From the NCBI GenBank assembly GCA_022701475.1, contig JAKOOI010000217.1:1-11475 (forward strand): a stretch of 11,475 bases of DNA, given 5' to 3'. The position numbers and the translations under genes were made by a program. Source of the stretch: Weeksellaceae bacterium. Lineage in GTDB: Bacteria; Bacteroidota; Bacteroidia; Flavobacteriales; Weeksellaceae. The notes below the pieces were generated by a model. It had not been told where the DNA came from. It saw nothing but the letters and a program-made list of their open reading frames with translations, and searched no databases. Below, one piece after another: positions 223-7,823 of this stretch. Within the stretch, counting starts at the first letter, position 1. Each line of letters starts with the position of its first letter.

Positions 223-1044
223 ATGAAAATCGTCAATGAAAAATTAGCCAAAACGGTATCTTCCGAAAACATCAGTTTTGTGCCAAGCCCCAATAAAGGG
301 GGACCAATGGTTCCTGATTCCATTATTATCCACTTCACGGCCGGCAGAAGTGCCGAAAGTTCCGTTACCTGGTTCAAGAATCCCGAAGCAGATGCTTCTG
401 CCCATCTCGTCATCGGTCAGGATGGAAAGATCATCCAGATGGTAGAATTCAACAGGAAAGCATGGCATGCCGGAGTCAGCCGGTGGGCAGACTGCAAAGG
501 ATTCAATAATTTTTCCATTGGCATTGAACTGGACAATCCGGGAAGACTGACCAAAGTAAATGACCGGTATTACGCCTGGTTCGGAAAAGAATACCTTAAG
601 GATGCCGTACTCGAGGCACGGCATAAGCACGAAAAAGAAATGTCGTACTGGCATATTTTCCCGGAAAAGCAGATGGATGCCTGCCTGAAGGTCTGCAAAC
701 TCATTATGCAGCACTACAAGATCAGGGAGATCCTCGGGCATGATGACATCGCACCGCTCCGGAAAAATGATCCCGGACCTGCATTTCCCATGGAAAGCTT
801 CAGGGCAAAATTGTTGGGAAGGCAGGATGATACTGCCGATGTTTATGAAGTGATTATTGATCATACTAACATCAGGGCCGGTGCAGGTACTGCATTCGAG
901 AGCCTGGCAAAACTCCCGGTAGGCACACCTGTGGAATTTGTGGAAAGCCGGTCAGGATGGTTTCATGTTTATGTGCTCAGAAACCCTGCCGGTGGAGAGC
1001 CGCTGTACGGATGGATCAACGGTTCATTGCTAAAAAAGATATAA
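223..1044 (+). CDS. N-acetylmuramoyl-L-alanine amidase (amidase_2/AmpD type) with SH3 domain
   Basis: This zinc amidase should cleave the bond between N-acetylmuramic acid and L-alanine of the peptide stem in peptidoglycan or its turnover fragments. Residues about 30-195 form the amidase_2 domain. The expected zinc ligands are visible: His37 (IIIHFTA), His173 (LGHDDIAP) and Asp183 (KNDPGPAFP). Glu102 in SIGIEL matches the catalytic Glu of AmpD, and Lys181 matches the AmpD active-site Lys. Residues about 206-273 look like a bacterial SH3 domain (NIRAGAG, GWFHVYV, YGWINGSLL), which AmpD itself lacks. There is no signal peptide or membrane segment, so by sequence it is cytosolic, unless it is phage-endolysin-like or released by lysis. 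The gene stands alone between two terminators. The ATG at 223 is the first in frame after the upstream hairpin. I see no good flavobacterial promoter before it. Confidence 0.88.
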   Translation: MKIVNEKLAKTVSSENISFVPSPNKGGPMVPDSIIIHFTAGRSAESSVTWFKNPEADASAHLVIGQDGKIIQMVEFNRKAWHAGVSRWADCKGFNNFSIGIELDNPGRLTKVNDRYYAWFGKEYLKDAVLEARHKHEKEMSYWHIFPEKQMDACLKVCKLIMQHYKIREILGHDDIAPLRKNDPGPAFPMESFRAKLLGRQDDTADVYEVIIDHTNIRAGAGTAFESLAKLPVGTPVEFVESRSGWFHVYVLRNPAGGEPLYGWINGSLLKKI

Positions 1045-1062
1045 CCAGCAGACAGCTGCAAA

Positions 1063-1088
1063 AAGGCCTTCATCGGGATGGAGGCCTT
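1063..1088. terminator. Bidirectional terminator between convergent genes
   Basis: Bases 1063-1073 pair with 1078-1088 (AAGGCCTTCAT against ATGGAGGCCTT, one wobble) around a CGGG loop. Read on the minus strand the hairpin is followed by five T, so it best serves the lipoprotein gene. On the plus strand a weaker T-rich tail follows and serves the amidase gene. Confidence 0.7.
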
Positions 1089-1093
1089 GTTAT

Positions 1094-1528
1094 TTAAATC
1101 TTGGTCTTTTTCAGTTCGATAATATTGCTACCCTGTTCCAGATGGAGGCTGTCTCCTTTTACACGGGCGGTCATATCGTCTTTTTTATAAACGGTCTCAT
1201 CACCTGTAGTTTCCGTTTGCTTAAGGGTAAATGTTTTCTTATTGCTCGTGATGGCTACTGTGCTTTCTTTCGGTGTGGTTTCAAAGACTACCTTTACCAG
1301 TGTGCCGTCTGTTGCCTTATATACATTGCTTACCTTCTCGGTTTTCTGCCCGTTTACCTCCGTCACGGTAGAACGGGTGGTAACGGAATCTGTTCTGCCG
1401 TTATTGTCCGTCACCGAAGTTTCGGAGCTTTCCTCCCGGATGACACTTTTGTTTCCGCTTTCATTCTTCTTACAGCCGGTAAATGTGAGGAGCAGTGCGC
1501 TTCCTGCCAACAGGAATCTTTTTTTCAT
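1094..1528 (-). CDS. Small lipoprotein with MliC-like C-terminal domain
   Basis: The 144-aa product starts with a lipoprotein signal: MKKR, a hydrophobic stretch, then TFTGC with the acylated cysteine at 19. Residues 20-66 are a polar Ser/Thr/Glu-rich linker. Residues about 69-135 follow the pattern of the MliC/PliC fold, which inhibits c-type lysozyme: YKATDGTLVKVVF, a variable strand, FTLKQTETTGDETVY, then VKGDSLHLEQG. Lys124-Gly125 lies where MliC proteins carry their conserved KG. The usual SGSGxxY stretch is replaced by TTGDETVY, and the disulphide cysteines are absent. I infer an inner- or outer-membrane-anchored envelope protein that may protect peptidoglycan. The domain call rests on pattern alone and could be wrong; the lipoprotein call is firm. 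It is convergent with the amidase and divergent from the response regulator. Confidence 0.75.
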   Translation of the reverse strand: MKKRFLLAGSALLLTFTGCKKNESGNKSVIREESSETSVTDNNGRTDSVTTRSTVTEVNGQKTEKVSNVYKATDGTLVKVVFETTPKESTVAITSNKKTFTLKQTETTGDETVYKKDDMTARVKGDSLHLEQGSNIIELKKTKI

Positions 1529-1569
1529 AGTTTTATTTTTTAGGTATTGATTTATGATTGTATTGAAAA

Positions 1570-1589
1570 TTTTATTAAATTTAATAAAA
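1570..1589. repeat. Perfect 20-bp AT-only palindrome
   Basis: TTTTATTAAA is followed directly by its reverse complement. It sits over the proposed -7 box of the lipoprotein gene, in the divergent region between the lipoprotein and the response regulator. It could be an operator, but AT-only sequence makes such symmetry more likely by chance. Confidence 0.5.
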
Positions 1590-1605
1590 ACAAAAACTAA
1601 AACAA
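1576..1605 (-). promoter_or_regulatory. Possible promoter of the lipoprotein gene
   Basis: On the minus strand a TTG (plus-strand CAA at 1603-1605) lies 19 nt before TAAATTTA (1576-1583), close to the flavobacterial TTG-N-TAnnTTTG pattern except for the last base. It would give a leader of roughly 40 nt. The region is so AT-rich that this is tentative. Confidence 0.3.
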
Positions 1606-1628
1606 TGGACCGGACTCAAAACTTTGAA

Positions 1629-1648
1629 AATTACCCGTTCGGGTAATT
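1629..1648. promoter_or_regulatory. Candidate operator: perfect inverted repeat before the response regulator gene
   Basis: AATTACCC (1629-1636) and GGGTAATT (1641-1648) are exact inverted 8-bp half sites separated by GTTC. The right half runs into the -33 TTG of the promoter. A dimeric regulator binding here would touch RNA polymerase. A related element lies at 4615-4634 at the same place relative to its promoter. The natural candidate to bind is the response regulator encoded just downstream; that is inference. Confidence 0.6.
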
Positions 1649-1677
1649 GACTGCATTTTACCACTTGTTTACCTTTG
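1647..1677 (+). promoter_or_regulatory. Promoter of the signalling operon
   Basis: TTG at 1647-1649, 20 nt, then TACCTTTG at 1670-1677 fits the flavobacterial consensus TTG-N(17-23)-TAnnTTTG exactly. Transcription would start near 1684, about 10 nt before the ATG at 1695. This also rules out the in-frame TTG at 1647 as the translation start. Confidence 0.75.
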
Positions 1678-1694
1678 TCTTAAACCACATCAGC

Positions 1695-2327
1695 ATGAGC
1701 ATCTCCATAGCCATCGTAGAAGACGAGAAAAACTACAACAACGCGTTGAAAAAGGTCATCAATTATCAGGATGACATGAATGTTGTTGCCCAGTTCCATA
1801 ACGGCAGTGATGCATTGGCAGGGCTTCCGGGCAGCGCTCCGGAAGTGGTGATGATGGATATCCAGCTGCCGGACATGCAGGGCATTGAAATCATGGAAAA
1901 ACTGAAGCGGCAGATGCCCGGTACACGGTTTATCATGTGCACCAGCTTCGAAGACGATGAAAAAGTCTTCCGTTCCCTGAAAGCAGGAGCCTTAGGATAC
2001 CTCGTAAAAGGAGAAAGTATGGATAAAATTCTTTCTTCGATCCGCGATGTCTGTAACGGCGGCGCCCCGATGAGCTTCTCCATCGCCCGTAAGGTACTTA
2101 GTCATTTCGAAATGAAATCGCCGGAAGCAGAGGGCTTCGATGATCTTACGGAACGGGAAAAAGAAGTCCTTCAACTTTTGTCGGAAGGACTTCTGTATAA
2201 GGAAATCGCCGACCGGAAATGCATCAGCATCGATACCGTTAAAAAACATATCGGAAATACCTACAGAAAACTTCACGTCAGTAACAAAGTGGAGGCTGTC
2301 AATAAATTTAACCGTTTTAAAAACTAG
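1695..2327 (+). CDS. NarL/LuxR-type response regulator
   Basis: This is a cytosolic two-component transcription factor of 210 aa. Residues 1-120 form the receiver domain: acidic pocket Glu9/Asp10, phosphoacceptor Asp55 (VVMMDIQLPD), Thr83 and Lys105 (YLVKGES). Residues about 147-208 form a LuxR/GerE helix-turn-helix: LTEREKEVLQLLSEG, then KEIADRKCISIDTVKKHI. This class normally works with HisKA_3 kinases, and one lies three genes downstream in the same operon. The ATG at 1695 was chosen because the frame upstream of it runs through a clear promoter; an in-frame TTG at 1647 would add 16 residues with no match to the family. The inverted repeat at 1629-1648 suggests self-regulation. The gene is much richer in GC (55% on one sampled 60-nt line) than the two genes after it. 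Confidence 0.93.
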   Translation: MSISIAIVEDEKNYNNALKKVINYQDDMNVVAQFHNGSDALAGLPGSAPEVVMMDIQLPDMQGIEIMEKLKRQMPGTRFIMCTSFEDDEKVFRSLKAGALGYLVKGESMDKILSSIRDVCNGGAPMSFSIARKVLSHFEMKSPEAEGFDDLTEREKEVLQLLSEGLLYKEIADRKCISIDTVKKHIGNTYRKLHVSNKVEAVNKFNRFKN

Positions 2328-2332
2328 AAAAC

Positions 2333-3154
2333 ATGGAAAAGAAATTTTTTGATTTTGAATGTGCTCTCGAAGCTGCTATTATTGCAATACAAAAGGGAGG
2401 AACTATTAAAGACTTCTATGAAATGAAAGAATTTACGGAGCGTGAGCAACTGATCAAGAATTATATTACAAGGAGTGGGATAATTTTTTTCTTAAGCCAT
2501 CCTATAGGAGATGACGAATTTTTAAAAAACAGAACATTGTTTGAACAGCTGGCTCCTGATATTAGTCAGGAATTATACATAGATTTTCAATTATTTCAAA
2601 TCCTTGTCAGAGACCATTTGAATGAAGGATATAAAACAATGAAAATCTCTTTTAGAGAACTTAAAAATAGTACAATTAGTGAATTCTCTGGGATGATACC
2701 TGAAAATCAATCCTCACTGAAAAGTATAGAAGGATACTTATATGCAACCTTATCCTTCCACGAAGCATCAGATCAAACAAAGCCGGATAAACATTATTTT
2801 GTTTTCAACCTGAATAGATTTTATGAGGTAAATGTATCTCAATTGAAAAAATTTGATTGTACGAATTTAGGGGGAATTCTTACTAATGCATCAGATGACA
2901 AATATGTAGCAAACTCTATACGTTACGAGTTGATTCTCGTAAAACAGTATATTGATAGAATACATATGTACCTGGAAGGTTGCCTTAAAAAAAGTATCTC
3001 CAGGCTTGAATTCATACCGTGTATTGGAAAAAAAACGGTAAGTTCTGGAGGAGAGAAACAGTCAATATACCTTGCAACGATGCCATCAGATAATAGTAAA
3101 CAATTACTTAGTACACACTTCCCATATTACGACCAGGGAAGTTTAGAGCCATAA
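2333..3154 (+). CDS. Unrecognised soluble protein in the signalling operon
   Basis: I do not recognise this 273-aa protein. It has no signal peptide, no membrane segment and no motif I can name. The N-terminal third is probably helical (ALEAAIIAIQKGGTIKDF, then FTEREQLIKNYI). The middle holds alternating short strands, and the sequence ends in a polar tail. The ATG at 2333 lies 5 nt after the response regulator stop, and the next gene starts 1 nt after this one ends, so translation is probably coupled. The position between regulator and membrane protein suggests a cytosolic accessory part of the signalling chain, for example a connector between the 7TM protein and the kinase; nothing in the sequence proves that. 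The gene is AT-rich, unlike the regulator before it and the kinase core after it. Confidence 0.85.
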   Translation: MEKKFFDFECALEAAIIAIQKGGTIKDFYEMKEFTEREQLIKNYITRSGIIFFLSHPIGDDEFLKNRTLFEQLAPDISQELYIDFQLFQILVRDHLNEGYKTMKISFRELKNSTISEFSGMIPENQSSLKSIEGYLYATLSFHEASDQTKPDKHYFVFNLNRFYEVNVSQLKKFDCTNLGGILTNASDDKYVANSIRYELILVKQYIDRIHMYLEGCLKKSISRLEFIPCIGKKTVSSGGEKQSIYLATMPSDNSKQLLSTHFPYYDQGSLEP

Positions 3155-3155
3155 A

Positions 3156-3776
3156 ATGCTTATTACAGCTTACTATATAATTTCTTTTATTGTCTTGATA
3201 AAAGGCATCATAGTTTTGAGAGGAAGAAAATTATCCTCTCAAAACTATTTTATATTGTATTTGATTATAAATTTTGCGGTAGATTATTTTTCAGAAATTA
3301 ATGTTATTTCAACCAGATCAATTCAGTATAACTATCTGAACATTTTCAATATTTTCTATTTTGTCATTTTTTATTTTCGACATACTAAAAACAAAAATAT
3401 AGCTGTTGTATTATCTGTTATAGTTTTAATAATAATAGTCTTGAATATTGAACTTTTTTATATTGATAAATATAATTTGAATATTGCTATCACGTATTGT
3501 GTTATCAACATACTACAGGTATTGTATTGGTGCAGTTATAAGTTAAATAATATCAATAAATCGAAAATTACAGACGATCCCATTTTTTGGATCTCAATAT
3601 CGATACTTTTATGGAGCTGTTTTTTCCTTTTCAGAATTATTCCTATGTATCTGCTGAATGAAGTTGATAAACCATTTCTGAAATTGTTGAAACAAATATT
3701 AAATATAATTAATATTGTATGTGGTGGCTTATTTTATATTGCTTTACATAAATATAACCTAATGAGTAAAAGATGA
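3156..3776 (+). CDS. Seven-helix membrane protein, probable sensor module
   Basis: The 206-aa product is almost entirely membrane. Likely helices lie at about 3-21, 31-46, 60-74, 82-101, 107-127, 143-160 and 181-197, with short loops and no large extracellular domain. NIFNIFYFVIFYF and DDPIFWISISILLW recall stretches I associate with small Bacteroidota membrane proteins found next to sensor kinases; this is a recollection, not a match I can show. The gene starts 1 nt after the previous stop and its stop overlaps the kinase start by 4 nt (ATGA), which argues for a fixed ratio with the kinase. The kinase has only one membrane helix and no sensing domain, so this protein is the likely receptor. 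Local GC is very low (22% on the line at 3361). The ligand cannot be guessed. Confidence 0.85.
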   Translation: MLITAYYIISFIVLIKGIIVLRGRKLSSQNYFILYLIINFAVDYFSEINVISTRSIQYNYLNIFNIFYFVIFYFRHTKNKNIAVVLSVIVLIIIVLNIELFYIDKYNLNIAITYCVINILQVLYWCSYKLNNINKSKITDDPIFWISISILLWSCFFLFRIIPMYLLNEVDKPFLKLLKQILNIINIVCGGLFYIALHKYNLMSKR

Positions 3777-4558
3777 AGTCTCTACCCTCAGAAATAAAAC
3801 TTATTTTTTTAATCGCATTACTTTTAGTGATACTTTTGGTTGCTTTCACAATTTTCATTGTATTAATGTACAACAGAAAACAGCTTTTATATCTGAAAGA
3901 AAACCAGCTCAAAGAATCCGAACACCAAAACCAGCTCCTCCAAAAAGAACTCGAAAAACAAAAACTGATCGAAAAAGAACGCGAACGTATTTCCCACGAC
4001 ATGCACGATGATCTTGGAGCGGGAATTTCTGCCCTTAAACTCCAGGCGGAATTCTTAAAACAGCGGGCCGAAAACGAAGATCTGAAAAGTGACATCGACG
4101 AACTCCTGAAAACCTCTGAAGAAATGAACCTTTCCATGCGCGAAATGCTCTGGAGCTTAAATTCAGGAAATGATACCTTGGGAAGCTTTATCGGCTATGC
4201 TAAATCCTACGCGCAAAACTTCCTCAAAAAAACAACCATTGTCCTTCACATTGAAAATGAAAATGTCATTCAGGAAACGACTATCACGACGGAACAGCGG
4301 CGCAACCTTTTTTTATGCCTGAAAGAAGCCTTAAATAATGCTTACAAACACAGCCGGTCCAACAGATTGATCCTTTCATTTATCCAGCAGGAAAAGGAAT
4401 TTATGATGAAAATTTCGGATAACGGAGTCGGCATCGATCCCGGCAACCCTGAAGGTAACGGCTTACGCAATATGAAGCGCCGGATGCAGGAACAGAACGG
4501 GCATTGCGAAGTCACCACGGAAAACGGAACGCACCTGTTTTTCAGGATAGAATTGTAA
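3773..4558 (+). CDS. HisKA_3 sensor histidine kinase, single membrane anchor
   Basis: This 261-aa kinase should autophosphorylate and pass phosphate to Asp55 of the regulator encoded at 1695. Residues about 10-33 are one membrane helix with almost no extracytoplasmic part. Residues 36-72 are a Gln/Glu/Lys-rich coiled coil. The dimerisation helix carries the phosphoacceptor His78 in RISHDMHDDLGAG. The HATPase domain follows, with the N box (CLKEALNNAYKHS), the G1 box (SDNGVGID) and the G2 box (GNGLRNMKRRM). The family is that of NarX/LiaS-type kinases. The start overlaps the membrane gene by 4 nt. Composition jumps within the gene: the anchor-coding part is AT-rich (27% GC on the line at 3841) and the coiled coil and kinase core are not (43-45% from about 3900). 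That break suggests recombination at the input/transmitter border. Confidence 0.93.
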   Translation: MKSLPSEIKLIFLIALLLVILLVAFTIFIVLMYNRKQLLYLKENQLKESEHQNQLLQKELEKQKLIEKERERISHDMHDDLGAGISALKLQAEFLKQRAENEDLKSDIDELLKTSEEMNLSMREMLWSLNSGNDTLGSFIGYAKSYAQNFLKKTTIVLHIENENVIQETTITTEQRRNLFLCLKEALNNAYKHSRSNRLILSFIQQEKEFMMKISDNGVGIDPGNPEGNGLRNMKRRMQEQNGHCEVTTENGTHLFFRIEL

Positions 4559-4578
4559 AATCATTGAGATTGAAATAG

Positions 4579-4608
4579 AAACAGCATCATTTTATGGTGC
4601 TGTTTTTT
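4579..4608 (+). terminator. Terminator of the signalling operon
   Basis: Bases 4579-4590 pair with 4594-4605 over 12 positions (core ACAGCA with TGCTGT, one wobble) around a TTT loop, and the right arm runs into a six-T tract. It separates the kinase gene from the next unit, so the genes at 4690 and 5113 need their own promoter. Confidence 0.85.
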
Positions 4609-4614
4609 ATTGTA

Positions 4615-4634
4615 AATCATCCGTTTGTGTAATT
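4615..4634. promoter_or_regulatory. Second copy of the operator-like element
   Basis: AATCATCC (4615-4622), GTTT, GTGTAATT (4627-4634) corresponds to the inverted repeat at 1629-1648. Between 4621-4640 and 1635-1654, 17 of 20 bases are identical. The symmetry is weaker than in the first copy, with five of eight half-site positions pairing. It overlaps the -33 TTG in the same way. Confidence 0.55.
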
Positions 4635-4663
4635 GACCGCGGTTTGTTTTTATGGGAACTTTG
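4633..4663 (+). promoter_or_regulatory. Promoter of the 138-aa/outer-membrane protein unit
   Basis: TTG at 4633-4635, 20 nt, then GAACTTTG at 4656-4663. The spacing is identical to the response regulator promoter. The -7 box lacks the consensus TA at its start, so this promoter may be weak without an activator. An in-frame TTG at 4633 lies inside the promoter and is not a credible start codon. Confidence 0.55.
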
Positions 4664-4689
4664 AGGTGGAAATTTTAATATTAAAAATC

Positions 4690-5106
4690 ATGGCAAAAAA
4701 AACAGGACAAAACAGTGTGATCGCTTTAACTCCAAAAGAACTTGTAAAGTATAGTCTGGGAGAGCGTTCAGTATTTTATGCACAGTATAACGTGCTTGAT
4801 TTAGTAGGAGGAGATGTTTCTCTAAGGACTTCGATTACAGGTATTGTTACTGCAGGAAATGCACAGTACAAATTAAATGGAGAGGTACATGAAATTCCTG
4901 ATGGTACAACAGTAACAGTTGGTGAGAATAAAGACTTGTTTGGAAAACGTATAAAAATTGTAAGAAGTGTTTCCGGTGAGGAAGGAATTCCTTGTATGTT
5001 TACCATTACATTCGCAGGGGGATATAAAGATGCAGAGTATCATGTGTCTTCGAAAATAGACCATGTTGGAGTAACGGCGTTTGTGGCATTTATAGATTTT
5101 ATATAA
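4690..5106 (+). CDS. Unrecognised 138-aa beta-rich protein
   Basis: I do not recognise this protein. It begins MAKKTGQNSVIALTPKELVK, has no signal peptide and no membrane helix, and then alternates short beta-type stretches with Gly/Asn/Asp turns (GGDVSLRTSITGIVTAG, EIPDGTTVTVGEN, GKRIKIVRSVSG), ending in a hydrophobic strand (VGVTAFVAFIDFI). A small cytosolic beta-sandwich or barrel would fit. The ATG at 4690 follows an A/T-rich leader about 20 nt after the predicted transcription start. The next gene starts 6 nt after its stop and encodes an exported protein, so the two form one unit. The promoter element shared with the response regulator operon suggests it is a target of that system. The gene is AT-rich, unlike enolase downstream. 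Confidence 0.82.
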   Translation: MAKKTGQNSVIALTPKELVKYSLGERSVFYAQYNVLDLVGGDVSLRTSITGIVTAGNAQYKLNGEVHEIPDGTTVTVGENKDLFGKRIKIVRSVSGEEGIPCMFTITFAGGYKDAEYHVSSKIDHVGVTAFVAFIDFI

Positions 5107-5112
5107 AAAAAC

Positions 5113-6360
5113 ATGACCATGAAAACAATCTATGTATTATTAATTTTGGGTTCAAACTTTTTTTTGGGACAGGTAAGCCCAGAATTGTTACAAGCCCCGG
5201 CTTCTCCTGCATCAAGTCTATTAGGAGTTGCCAATAGTGAAATCAATAGACCAACAGATGTAGCAACTTTAATGGTAGGATTGCAGAATCTTCCCTTCAA
5301 TTTTATCGAAAAAGGTTCTTTTTCAGTAGATGTAGCGCCATATTGGATATCTCCAAATAAAAGTGACAAATCTATTTCTGAAATGCTGACAAATGCACAT
5401 TCAATTCCTCAGACGTTCGTTGTATCATTTGCTGTTAAGAATATGGATGATAATGCAGAAAAAATGATTGGGAATTCTATTTATTCAGCAGTAGGGTTTA
5501 AATTTTCTGTCCTGCGAGGTAATGCAAACAATGAAACTTATACGAAACATGCTTTGTTAAAAAAATTACTAACCAAAAATGCAAAAGTAATAGCGAAAGA
5601 TGTAACGGATGAAGATATTATTTTTAATGATGAAAAAGTGATAGATTACAAAACTAAGATGGAGGCAATAATGAAACTGATAGAATCTGATCGTTTGAAA
5701 AAGAACTCAGAAGAACTTTTACAAGAGTATAATAATCTGCTTCTGAAACTTAATGATAGAATAGGTGAGCTTAGTCCGATAGTTAAAAAGATCAGAGAAA
5801 AGGAAAGTCAGGAATATGTAGAGAGTATAGCCGAGATTCAAGCCATCCAAAAAAACTTTAAAATTGTGCGTGAGGGACTTCTATTAGATATTGCAGGCGG
5901 GACAAGTCTTCAATTCAGAGAAAAGCAATTTAATAATTCCAGAGTATATAATGCAGGTTTATGGACCGTTTTAGGATATGCATTTGAAAAATCGGGAACA
6001 CCATTATTTTTAATGCGTTATATGTATAATCCGAAAAGTGATTGGATGACTGTTGAAGACTTTAAGCCGAATGGAAACTTCTCCACTTTTGATGCCGGTG
6101 TAAAATATGAATATTCACCTAAAGATTCAAAATTTACAGGAAGTGTAGAAGGTTTATACAGAAGCTTTATTTCAGGATCCGATTTAAAACCTACTTGGAA
6201 ATGTGTTCTGAATTTAGACTATGCGATATTTAACAATCAACATTTGACACTATCGTTAGGTAAAGATTTTGACAATAATATCATAAAAAATGGAAATGTG
6301 ATGGCAGGACTCTCATTTCTCAGCGGTATCGGAACCAGGAGAAAAATCAGTGATAAATAA
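5113..6360 (+). CDS. Exported beta-rich protein with a helical insert, probably outer membrane
   Basis: Two start codons are possible, 5113 (MTMK) and 5119 (MK); the second gives the more usual signal peptide, MK followed by TIYVLLILGSNFFLG, with cleavage likely before or near Gln. After a Pro/Ala/Ser-rich stretch, residues 50-140 contain amphipathic strands (GSFSVDVAPYW, QTFVVSFAVKN, SAVGFKFSVLRG). Residues about 175-250 are strongly helical and charged, likely a coiled coil (KKNSEELLQEYNNLLLKLND). Residues 255-405 return to alternating strands typical of an outer-membrane barrel (LDIAGGTSLQF, FDAGVKYEYSP, GSVEGLYRSF, HLTLSLGKDF, VMAGLSFLSGIG). I infer an outer-membrane barrel with a large periplasmic or surface helical insert. 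No family name can be given. It is the last gene of its unit and is followed by a terminator. There is no T9SS C-terminal sorting domain that I can see. Confidence 0.82.
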   Translation: MTMKTIYVLLILGSNFFLGQVSPELLQAPASPASSLLGVANSEINRPTDVATLMVGLQNLPFNFIEKGSFSVDVAPYWISPNKSDKSISEMLTNAHSIPQTFVVSFAVKNMDDNAEKMIGNSIYSAVGFKFSVLRGNANNETYTKHALLKKLLTKNAKVIAKDVTDEDIIFNDEKVIDYKTKMEAIMKLIESDRLKKNSEELLQEYNNLLLKLNDRIGELSPIVKKIREKESQEYVESIAEIQAIQKNFKIVREGLLLDIAGGTSLQFREKQFNNSRVYNAGLWTVLGYAFEKSGTPLFLMRYMYNPKSDWMTVEDFKPNGNFSTFDAGVKYEYSPKDSKFTGSVEGLYRSFISGSDLKPTWKCVLNLDYAIFNNQHLTLSLGKDFDNNIIKNGNVMAGLSFLSGIGTRRKISDK

Positions 6361-6378
6361 TTAATCAAGAAAAAGAAG

Positions 6379-6418
6379 ACCTTCATTTTAAAGAAAATTT
6401 AAGTGAAGGTTTTTCTTT
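6379..6418 (+). terminator. Terminator after the outer-membrane protein gene
   Basis: ACCTTCA (6379-6385) pairs with TGAAGGT (6404-6410); several further pairs can form inside the A/T-rich loop. A T-rich tail (TTTTCTTT) follows at once. Confidence 0.7.
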
Positions 6419-6474
6419 GTCATCTCAAATTAACTTAAATTTAACTCTGAATAAACGTATAAATTACCCTTCAG

Positions 6475-6507
6475 TTGTTCCCAGCCATTAAAAATTGATT
6501 AAATTTG
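6475..6507 (+). promoter_or_regulatory. Enolase promoter
   Basis: TTG at 6475-6477, 22 nt, then TAAATTTG at 6500-6507, a full match to the flavobacterial -7 consensus. Transcription would start near 6514, with a leader of about 17 nt before the ATG at 6531. Confidence 0.65.
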
Positions 6508-6512
6508 TCTGA

Positions 6513-7823
<1,311 letters not shown>

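Follow-up and report, generated by a model that had tools for sequence, protein, structure and literature searches.

What do two promoters have in common that lie 3 kb apart, in front of unrelated genes? We asked this of an 11,475-nucleotide contig of a Weeksellaceae bacterium (GenBank assembly GCA_022701475.1, contig JAKOOI010000217.1), which was analysed over its whole length and is called the window below. In it, the original prediction had noticed nearly the same sequence in front of a response regulator operon and of the next transcription unit, and had proposed that the response regulator (RR; 1695..2327, plus strand, 210 aa) controls both. Based on a comparison of the locus across related genomes, we conclude that the shared element is most probably the operator of this NarL-type regulator, serving its own operon as well as a gene cassette downstream of the histidine kinase (HK; 3773..4558, plus strand).

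Structure and conservation of the shared element

The likeness of the two copies was recomputed and proved exact: bases 1635-1654 and 4621-4640 agree at 17 of 20 positions, and at 23 of 29 if counted from 1626 and 4612. The distance from the element to the -7 box is indeed equal in both copies, with TTTG lying 24 nt past GTAATTG each time, and the -33 TTG is part of the shared sequence, as the right arm runs into TTG at 1647-1649 and 4633-4635. After aligning sites by GTAATTG, the element was seen to be an inverted repeat, ATTACMC-N4-GKGTAAT (7-4-7). The 20-mer first pointed out comprises part of the left arm, the spacer, the right arm and the bases following it, and the extension to 1626 and 4612 adds the remainder of the left arm. 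Operator copy 1 (1630..1647) is the perfect repeat ATTACCC-GTTC-GGGTAAT, or 8-2-8 when two spacer bases are counted in, and the -7 box TTTG of the response regulator operon follows at 1674..1677. Operator copy 2 (4616..4633) is the imperfect repeat ATCATCC-GTTT-GTGTAAT with 4/7 arm pairs (counted by hand), followed by the TTTG of the cassette promoter at 4660..4663; all four features are on the plus strand.

Whether such a match exceeds chance was assessed with dinucleotide shuffles of the two intergenic regions. The best 20-mer between them reached 17/20 or more in 25 of 2000 shuffles (1.25%), and 16/20 is reached by a further two of the window's promoter pairs, amidase/138-aa protein and RR/enolase. 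By itself, the two-copy match therefore appears weak, and it is conservation across genomes that makes the case. A shuffle test of the originally described pattern (0.01 matches expected) was set aside as circular, the pattern having been derived from the two copies. In the source draft genome (73% complete, 602 contigs, with the window as the entire contig C125), the concern that the pattern might occur at random was not borne out: allowing up to three mismatches, it was found at the two window sites and once more with three mismatches (contig C280), and a bipartite pattern of core, N23 and TTTG matches exactly twice.

For the comparison, 118 genomes of Chryseobacterium, the closest named relatives judged by RR, were sampled. 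An HK orthologue is present in 101 of them, the window's genome included, resulting in 101 loci (100 relatives with their flanks, and the window). Gene order in these loci is near-constant: a lipoprotein-like gene on the reverse strand at variable distance, RR, two genes of no known family termed X and Y, HK, a variable cassette, enolase and citrate synthase. A cassette was scored as present if the gap between HK and enolase measured at least 500 bp (84 loci) and as absent if it was below 500 bp (17 loci); L069 was scored as cassette-bearing although its contig stops before enolase. Related genomes are not independent and kinship was not corrected for, so all Fisher values given below overstate significance.

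Conservation in front of orthologous regulators, which the original prediction called for, was found: core and spacing to the -7 box are kept within 160 nt of the RR start in 94 of the 101 loci. The other seven apparently lacked the operator, a view that was overturned when it was found displaced, 372-936 nt upstream of RR and before inserted genes, with an exact palindrome in four cases and one mismatch in three. If the inserted genes are part of the operon, the operator would head the RR operon in 101 of 101 loci. Between operator and RR, an open reading frame of 62-68 codons is located in L064, L065, L066, L068, L069, L106 and L109; a 191-codon gene is additionally found there in L106 and L109, and its copy in L106 matches CHAP.

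Downstream of the kinase, 81 of the 84 cassette-bearing loci have the element, versus 1 of the 17 others (Fisher 1.0e-14, kinship uncorrected); a stricter first scan had given 66/84 versus 1/17 (Fisher 1.9e-8, likewise uncorrected). Control windows on the same strand elsewhere in the loci yielded 41 relaxed matches in 2633. Two hits, in L086 and L092, had been dropped beforehand (reducing 83 to 81), being located about 900 nt inside coding sequence and having 1-2 of 7 arm pairs. The single small-gap locus with an element, L124, perhaps carries a remnant. Extra X-like genes were observed behind HK in L089, L095, L111 and L142, where the operator comes after them and before effector genes.

The phase relative to the promoter is equally constant, as TTTG stands at exactly 24 nt in 150 of 158 sites picked from the 101 loci by the palindrome alone. 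On the regulator side, the typical site is ATTACAC-AAAR-GTGTAATTG, with seven arm pairs in 60 of 94 sites, six in 32 and five in 2; the typical site downstream of HK is ATCACCC-TTTT-GTGTAATTG, with six arm pairs in 23 of 77 sites, five in 44, four in 7 and still fewer in the remaining 3. Since spacer and left arm differ, the two site classes are not simple copies of each other. This bears on the idea that copy 2 arose by recent duplication of the RR promoter, was brought along with the insertion of the cassette and is functionless by itself, which would explain why the copies in the window resemble each other to an unusual degree beyond the core. This additional likeness (CCGTTyG) is partly peculiar to the source genome. 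In relatives, however, the classes keep distinct spacers (usually AAAR on the regulator side, TTTT or GTTT on the cassette side) and distinct left arms (ATTAC versus mostly ATCAC), and arms and phase stay constant over very different cargo. We therefore regard a functionless duplicate as very unlikely. Operator structure, phasing and conservation are direct results of the comparison, as are the locus specificity, cassette dependence and X-Y covariation reported below.

Probable identity of the binding regulator

RR consists of a receiver and a LuxR/NarL-type helix-turn-helix (HTH). It belongs to the NarL/FixJ family according to Pfam (PF00072, E 9.4e-25; PF00196, a GerE-type HTH, E 5.4e-16), and VraR, DesR, DevR and NarL are its sequence relatives among solved structures in PDB. 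Among eight window proteins scanned, RR is the sole DNA-binding protein recognised by Pfam; PADLOC returned only weak matches to its HTH region. The palindromy of the element fits a dimeric regulator of the NarL type. ComA, another member of this family, has TTGCGG-N4-CCGCAA as its binding site, 4 nt being the optimal spacer length (PMC4797271), so that the 7-4-7 geometry has a precedent for such dimers. In HK, HisKA_3 and HATPase domains follow an N-terminus judged hydrophobic by eye, and no sensor domain was recognised by Pfam.

The occurrence of the site follows the locus. Of the 118 genomes, 95 contain a mismatch-free palindrome, and none contains its backwards control (0/118). Of the genomes with kinase, 94/101 contain it, versus 1/17 without (Fisher 1.7e-13, kinship uncorrected); in this lone kinase-less genome, G060, the site precedes an RR pseudogene with four stops in its reading frame. 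Broken RR or HK reading frames were also noted in L148, L162, L163 and G038 besides G060, and could stem from errors of assembly or from the system having been lost.

The bipartite pattern, which is looser than the palindrome, yielded 65 matches over 24 genomes; RR/HK sites account for 32 of them, the amidase gene has 2 in front of it, and 31 are found elsewhere. These numbers could suggest that the element belongs to promoters of the genus in general, as an extended -33 region, rather than being an operator of RR: it contains the -33 TTG, its distance to the -7 box is fixed, and 31 of the 65 strict matches are off-locus. Yet 31 matches amount to roughly 1.3 in each genome, fewer than a general promoter element would have; 16 of 17 kinase-less genomes lack the full palindrome, and all 118 genomes lack the backwards control; and a dyad that begins 17 nt before the -33 TTG is no part of a general promoter. 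We consider this explanation extremely unlikely. In the 17 kinase-less genomes, the bipartite pattern has 15 matches in 9 genomes, which, save for the site in G060, are probably due to chance.

In a sample of the whole family, 66 of 197 genomes and 8 of 33 genera have an RR relative at E 1e-45 or better. Of 25 RR places outside Chryseobacterium, 20 were analysed (those in G200, G172, G129, G256 and G232 were left out). In 17 of these 20 loci, RR is 53-64% identical, and the element, with at most one core mismatch, was detected before RR in 11/17 and after the kinase in 10/17; the contig of L260 is cut off before the kinase end. At the three loci with RR 44-45% identical, no palindrome was found. 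Two of these three, L275 and L277, have a relaxed core match at -132/-133 without a palindrome and were excluded from the counts. As a separate observation, a single gene for a kinase of 617-668 aa replaces X-Y-HK in L262, L264 and L266, and the operator before RR is kept.

Sites with the palindrome also exist away from the locus. At least 18 were counted among the genus genomes (L339-L356), such counts being lower bounds. The sites listed were chosen by palindrome alone; TTT[GA] follows at 24 nt in 14/18, all but L339, L350, L345 and L346, and TTTG in 10/18. The first genes behind the sites include those for a matrixin-like peptidase (L344), a thermolysin-type peptidase (L353) and, at a distance of 511 nt, an L,D-transpeptidase that carries a peptidoglycan-binding domain (L348), as well as relatives of the cassette clusters c15 (L341, L342) and c20 (L349, L352). 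A subtilase is located behind the site in L339 and a look-alike behind that in L350, both being sites without a -7 match, and the first genes in L340 and L343 belong to no Pfam family. Because distal copies precede peptidase and other genes, the operator appears portable. The distal sites could also favour a different DNA-binding protein, encoded elsewhere, which binds both sites of the locus and leaves RR with other targets. Against such a protein, sites come and go with the RR/HK locus across the 118 genomes, the sole palindrome of a kinase-less genome precedes the RR pseudogene, and the three divergent RR homologues (44-45%) are without palindrome; we judge a foreign binder to be improbable.

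Near the locus, the window also contains a gene for an N-acetylmuramoyl-L-alanine amidase (223-1044). It was considered as a third target and is only noted here: core and N24-TTTG were found at 5 of 15 starts in range (L065, L113, L118, L142, L144), the window's not among them, and left arms are mostly weak. At the amidase starts of L084 and L088, the core is combined with a different -7 box.

Proposed control of regulator operon and cassette

We infer the identity of the binder, its phosphorylation and the activation as follows. RR, probably phosphorylated by the HK encoded at 3773, would bind as a dimer to the 7-4-7 inverted repeat. Taking the first T of TTTG as -7, the operator would extend from about -51 to -34 with its centre around -42, adjoining and overlapping the -33 element. 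The consensus of the -7 box is TAnnTTTG; in relatives the box mostly reads GAnnTTTG, and bound RR would most likely activate transcription from this weak box. The perfect operator at 1630 would then mediate autoregulation of the RR-X-Y-HK operon, and the imperfect operator at 4616 would drive the cassette at 4690-6360. RR/HK and both operators are retained throughout the genus, with the X-Y pair and the cassette genes being exchanged. Thus, one regulator very probably controls both the RR operon and the cassette. This part of the original prediction is supported by conservation and by the tracking of site and locus; the second target, however, is the exchangeable cassette as such and not specifically the pair of the 138-aa and the outer-membrane protein found in the window.

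Several observations weigh against this proposal. The window's copy 1 is followed by the -7 box TACCTTTG, which is near consensus and so weakens the argument for an activator at that promoter, and copy 2, with just 4/7 arm pairs, could have low affinity. All seven displaced operators have TTTA, not TTTG, at 24 nt, and read-through into RR has to be assumed there. No recognisable operator precedes the cassettes of L081, L086 and L092 among the 84 cassette loci scanned, and the operators of L073 and L123, counted among the 81, are degenerate with 3 and 2 of 7 pairs. The bipartite pattern is not exclusive to the locus, since its 31 off-locus matches, three of which are distal palindromes, compare with 12 of the backwards control, and in 4 of the 24 genomes it has no locus match at all. 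Furthermore, 6 of the 17 RR orthologues in other genera are without an upstream operator, and recognition helices do not cleanly separate RRs with and without one. Lastly, as operator and -33 element overlap, a dimer bound there could keep out the polymerase; RR might accordingly repress both promoters until a signal relieves the repression. On the other hand, the mostly GAnnTTTG boxes are weaker than TAnnTTTG and suit activator-dependent promoters, and a centre around -42 is a usual position for an activator. Repression by RR is unlikely in our view, though to be taken seriously, and activation is preferred.

Exchangeable modules and comparison with known systems

The slot between HK and enolase (4559-6530 in the window) is a site of cassette exchange, ranging from 106 bp to about 3.9 kb and holding many gene families; its right border is the enolase gene (6531..7823, plus strand). 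In the window, the cassette consists of two genes on the plus strand, encoding a 138-aa protein of no known family (4690..5106, cargo cluster c11) and a 415-aa protein (5113..6360, cargo cluster c1 with 30 members in the loci), which was judged by eye to be a putative outer-membrane protein. Neither matches Pfam at E 0.001. For the 138-aa protein, a search of 5.8 billion sequences that required shared words returned 7 similar ones, apparently including the window's own. Cassette open reading frames group into 19 clusters of at least two members and 12 singletons. Pfam scans of a single member of each kind show that the cargo of some cassettes includes a YLATT protein (E 9.2e-21) whose end is pYEATS-like (E 2.3e-4, below the Pfam cut-off), and that of others trypsin-like or DyP-type peroxidase proteins; none of these four types was recognised by Pfam in the cassette of the window. 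The YLATT and pYEATS families have been linked to prokaryotic conflict systems.

X (2333..3154, plus strand, 273 aa) and Y (3156..3776, plus strand, 206 aa) are located between RR and HK and belong to no known family. Y is a small hydrophobic protein, its membrane topology having been judged by eye. X is swapped between species and about 190-320 aa long across relatives. Directly at the stop codon it carries a conserved tail, YYDQGSLEP, which is invariant in 16 close relatives of the window's X; tails of several types occur in the wider set, among them YDLGNLKP, FDMGSLYP, YDRNGLCPPGC, DDFCLKPPGC and PSDITSLWP. Tail and body of X covary with Y over 89 loci (partial Mantel test controlling for HK: r 0.44 for the tail and 0.27 for the body, each 1/2001), and the rank correlations with HK and RR range from -0.07 to 0.17 in the same loci. 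For instance, HK of L076 and L085 is 98% identical in its last 200 residues, with Y at 21% and the X body at 15%. X and Y covary between a conserved RR and a conserved HK and are, therefore, exchanged as a pair. A predicted structure of X was poor (mean predicted local distance difference test score 61.3), a fold search with it found nothing at E 0.001 or better, and it was not used. As far as genome comparison can tell, regulator and kinase are conserved and the X-Y pair and, separately from it, the cassette are swapped. The new and larger finding is thus a two-component locus of polymorphic make-up, in which a constant operator is combined with exchangeable modules for putative input and output.

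Bacillus comQXPA, too, combines a conserved regulator with polymorphic signal and receptor parts, according to PMC4008528 and PMC4408185. The locus described here resembles it in having a NarL/FixJ-family RR with a putative inverted-repeat operator of 4-nt spacer, and conserved RR/HK beside a polymorphic, covarying pair, for which a role as signal and receptor is putative here. On the other hand, the arms are ATTACMC instead of the TTGCGG of ComA, the RR operon has its own operator, and a swapped cassette would be a main target. A ComQ-type prenyltransferase was not among the Pfam hits of the eight window proteins (223-6357), X and Y of relatives not having been scanned one by one. In comQXPA, the signal ComX is a short pre-peptide for which the kinase itself acts as receptor; X, in contrast, has about 190-320 aa and Y is a separate protein. 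In the three-component bacteriocin loci pln and blp of lactic acid bacteria and pneumococcus, a regulator site precedes both the regulator's own operon and an adjacent exchangeable cassette, with polymorphic signal and receptor, and our locus is alike in the placement of its sites. Those Firmicutes loci, however, use LytTR-type regulators on direct repeats and short peptides with a double-glycine leader, unlike the NarL-type RR and inverted-repeat operator found here in Bacteroidota. As far as a search of the open literature shows, PMC7159879 and PMC4797271 included, no two-component-controlled system with this layout was found, nor any such locus in Bacteroidota.

A role of X and Y as input can be suggested tentatively. 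The C-terminal tail of X, or a peptide released from it, might be a type-specific signal which Y reads and by which it controls the sensorless HK; RR would then activate its own operon and any cassette headed by an operator, whether local or distant, such that effectors recombine behind a constant switch. The effectors of such a system, comparable to modules on a plug-in board, would be peptidases, peptidoglycan enzymes, peroxidases, outer-membrane and pYEATS-like proteins. We hold this signal-receptor scheme to be possible rather than probable. The analysis provides the locus, which 101 of the 118 Chryseobacterium genomes sampled possess, with a testable regulatory logic, in which the operator serves as a sequence tag pointing to targets, local and distant. 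It also exposes the unnamed X and Y and many unannotated cassette proteins, which are probably made in response to one signal. If X is indeed the signal, Bacteroidota would possess a polymorphic system of communication or recognition that is peptide-like and resembles the pheromone loci of Gram-positive bacteria in its construction.

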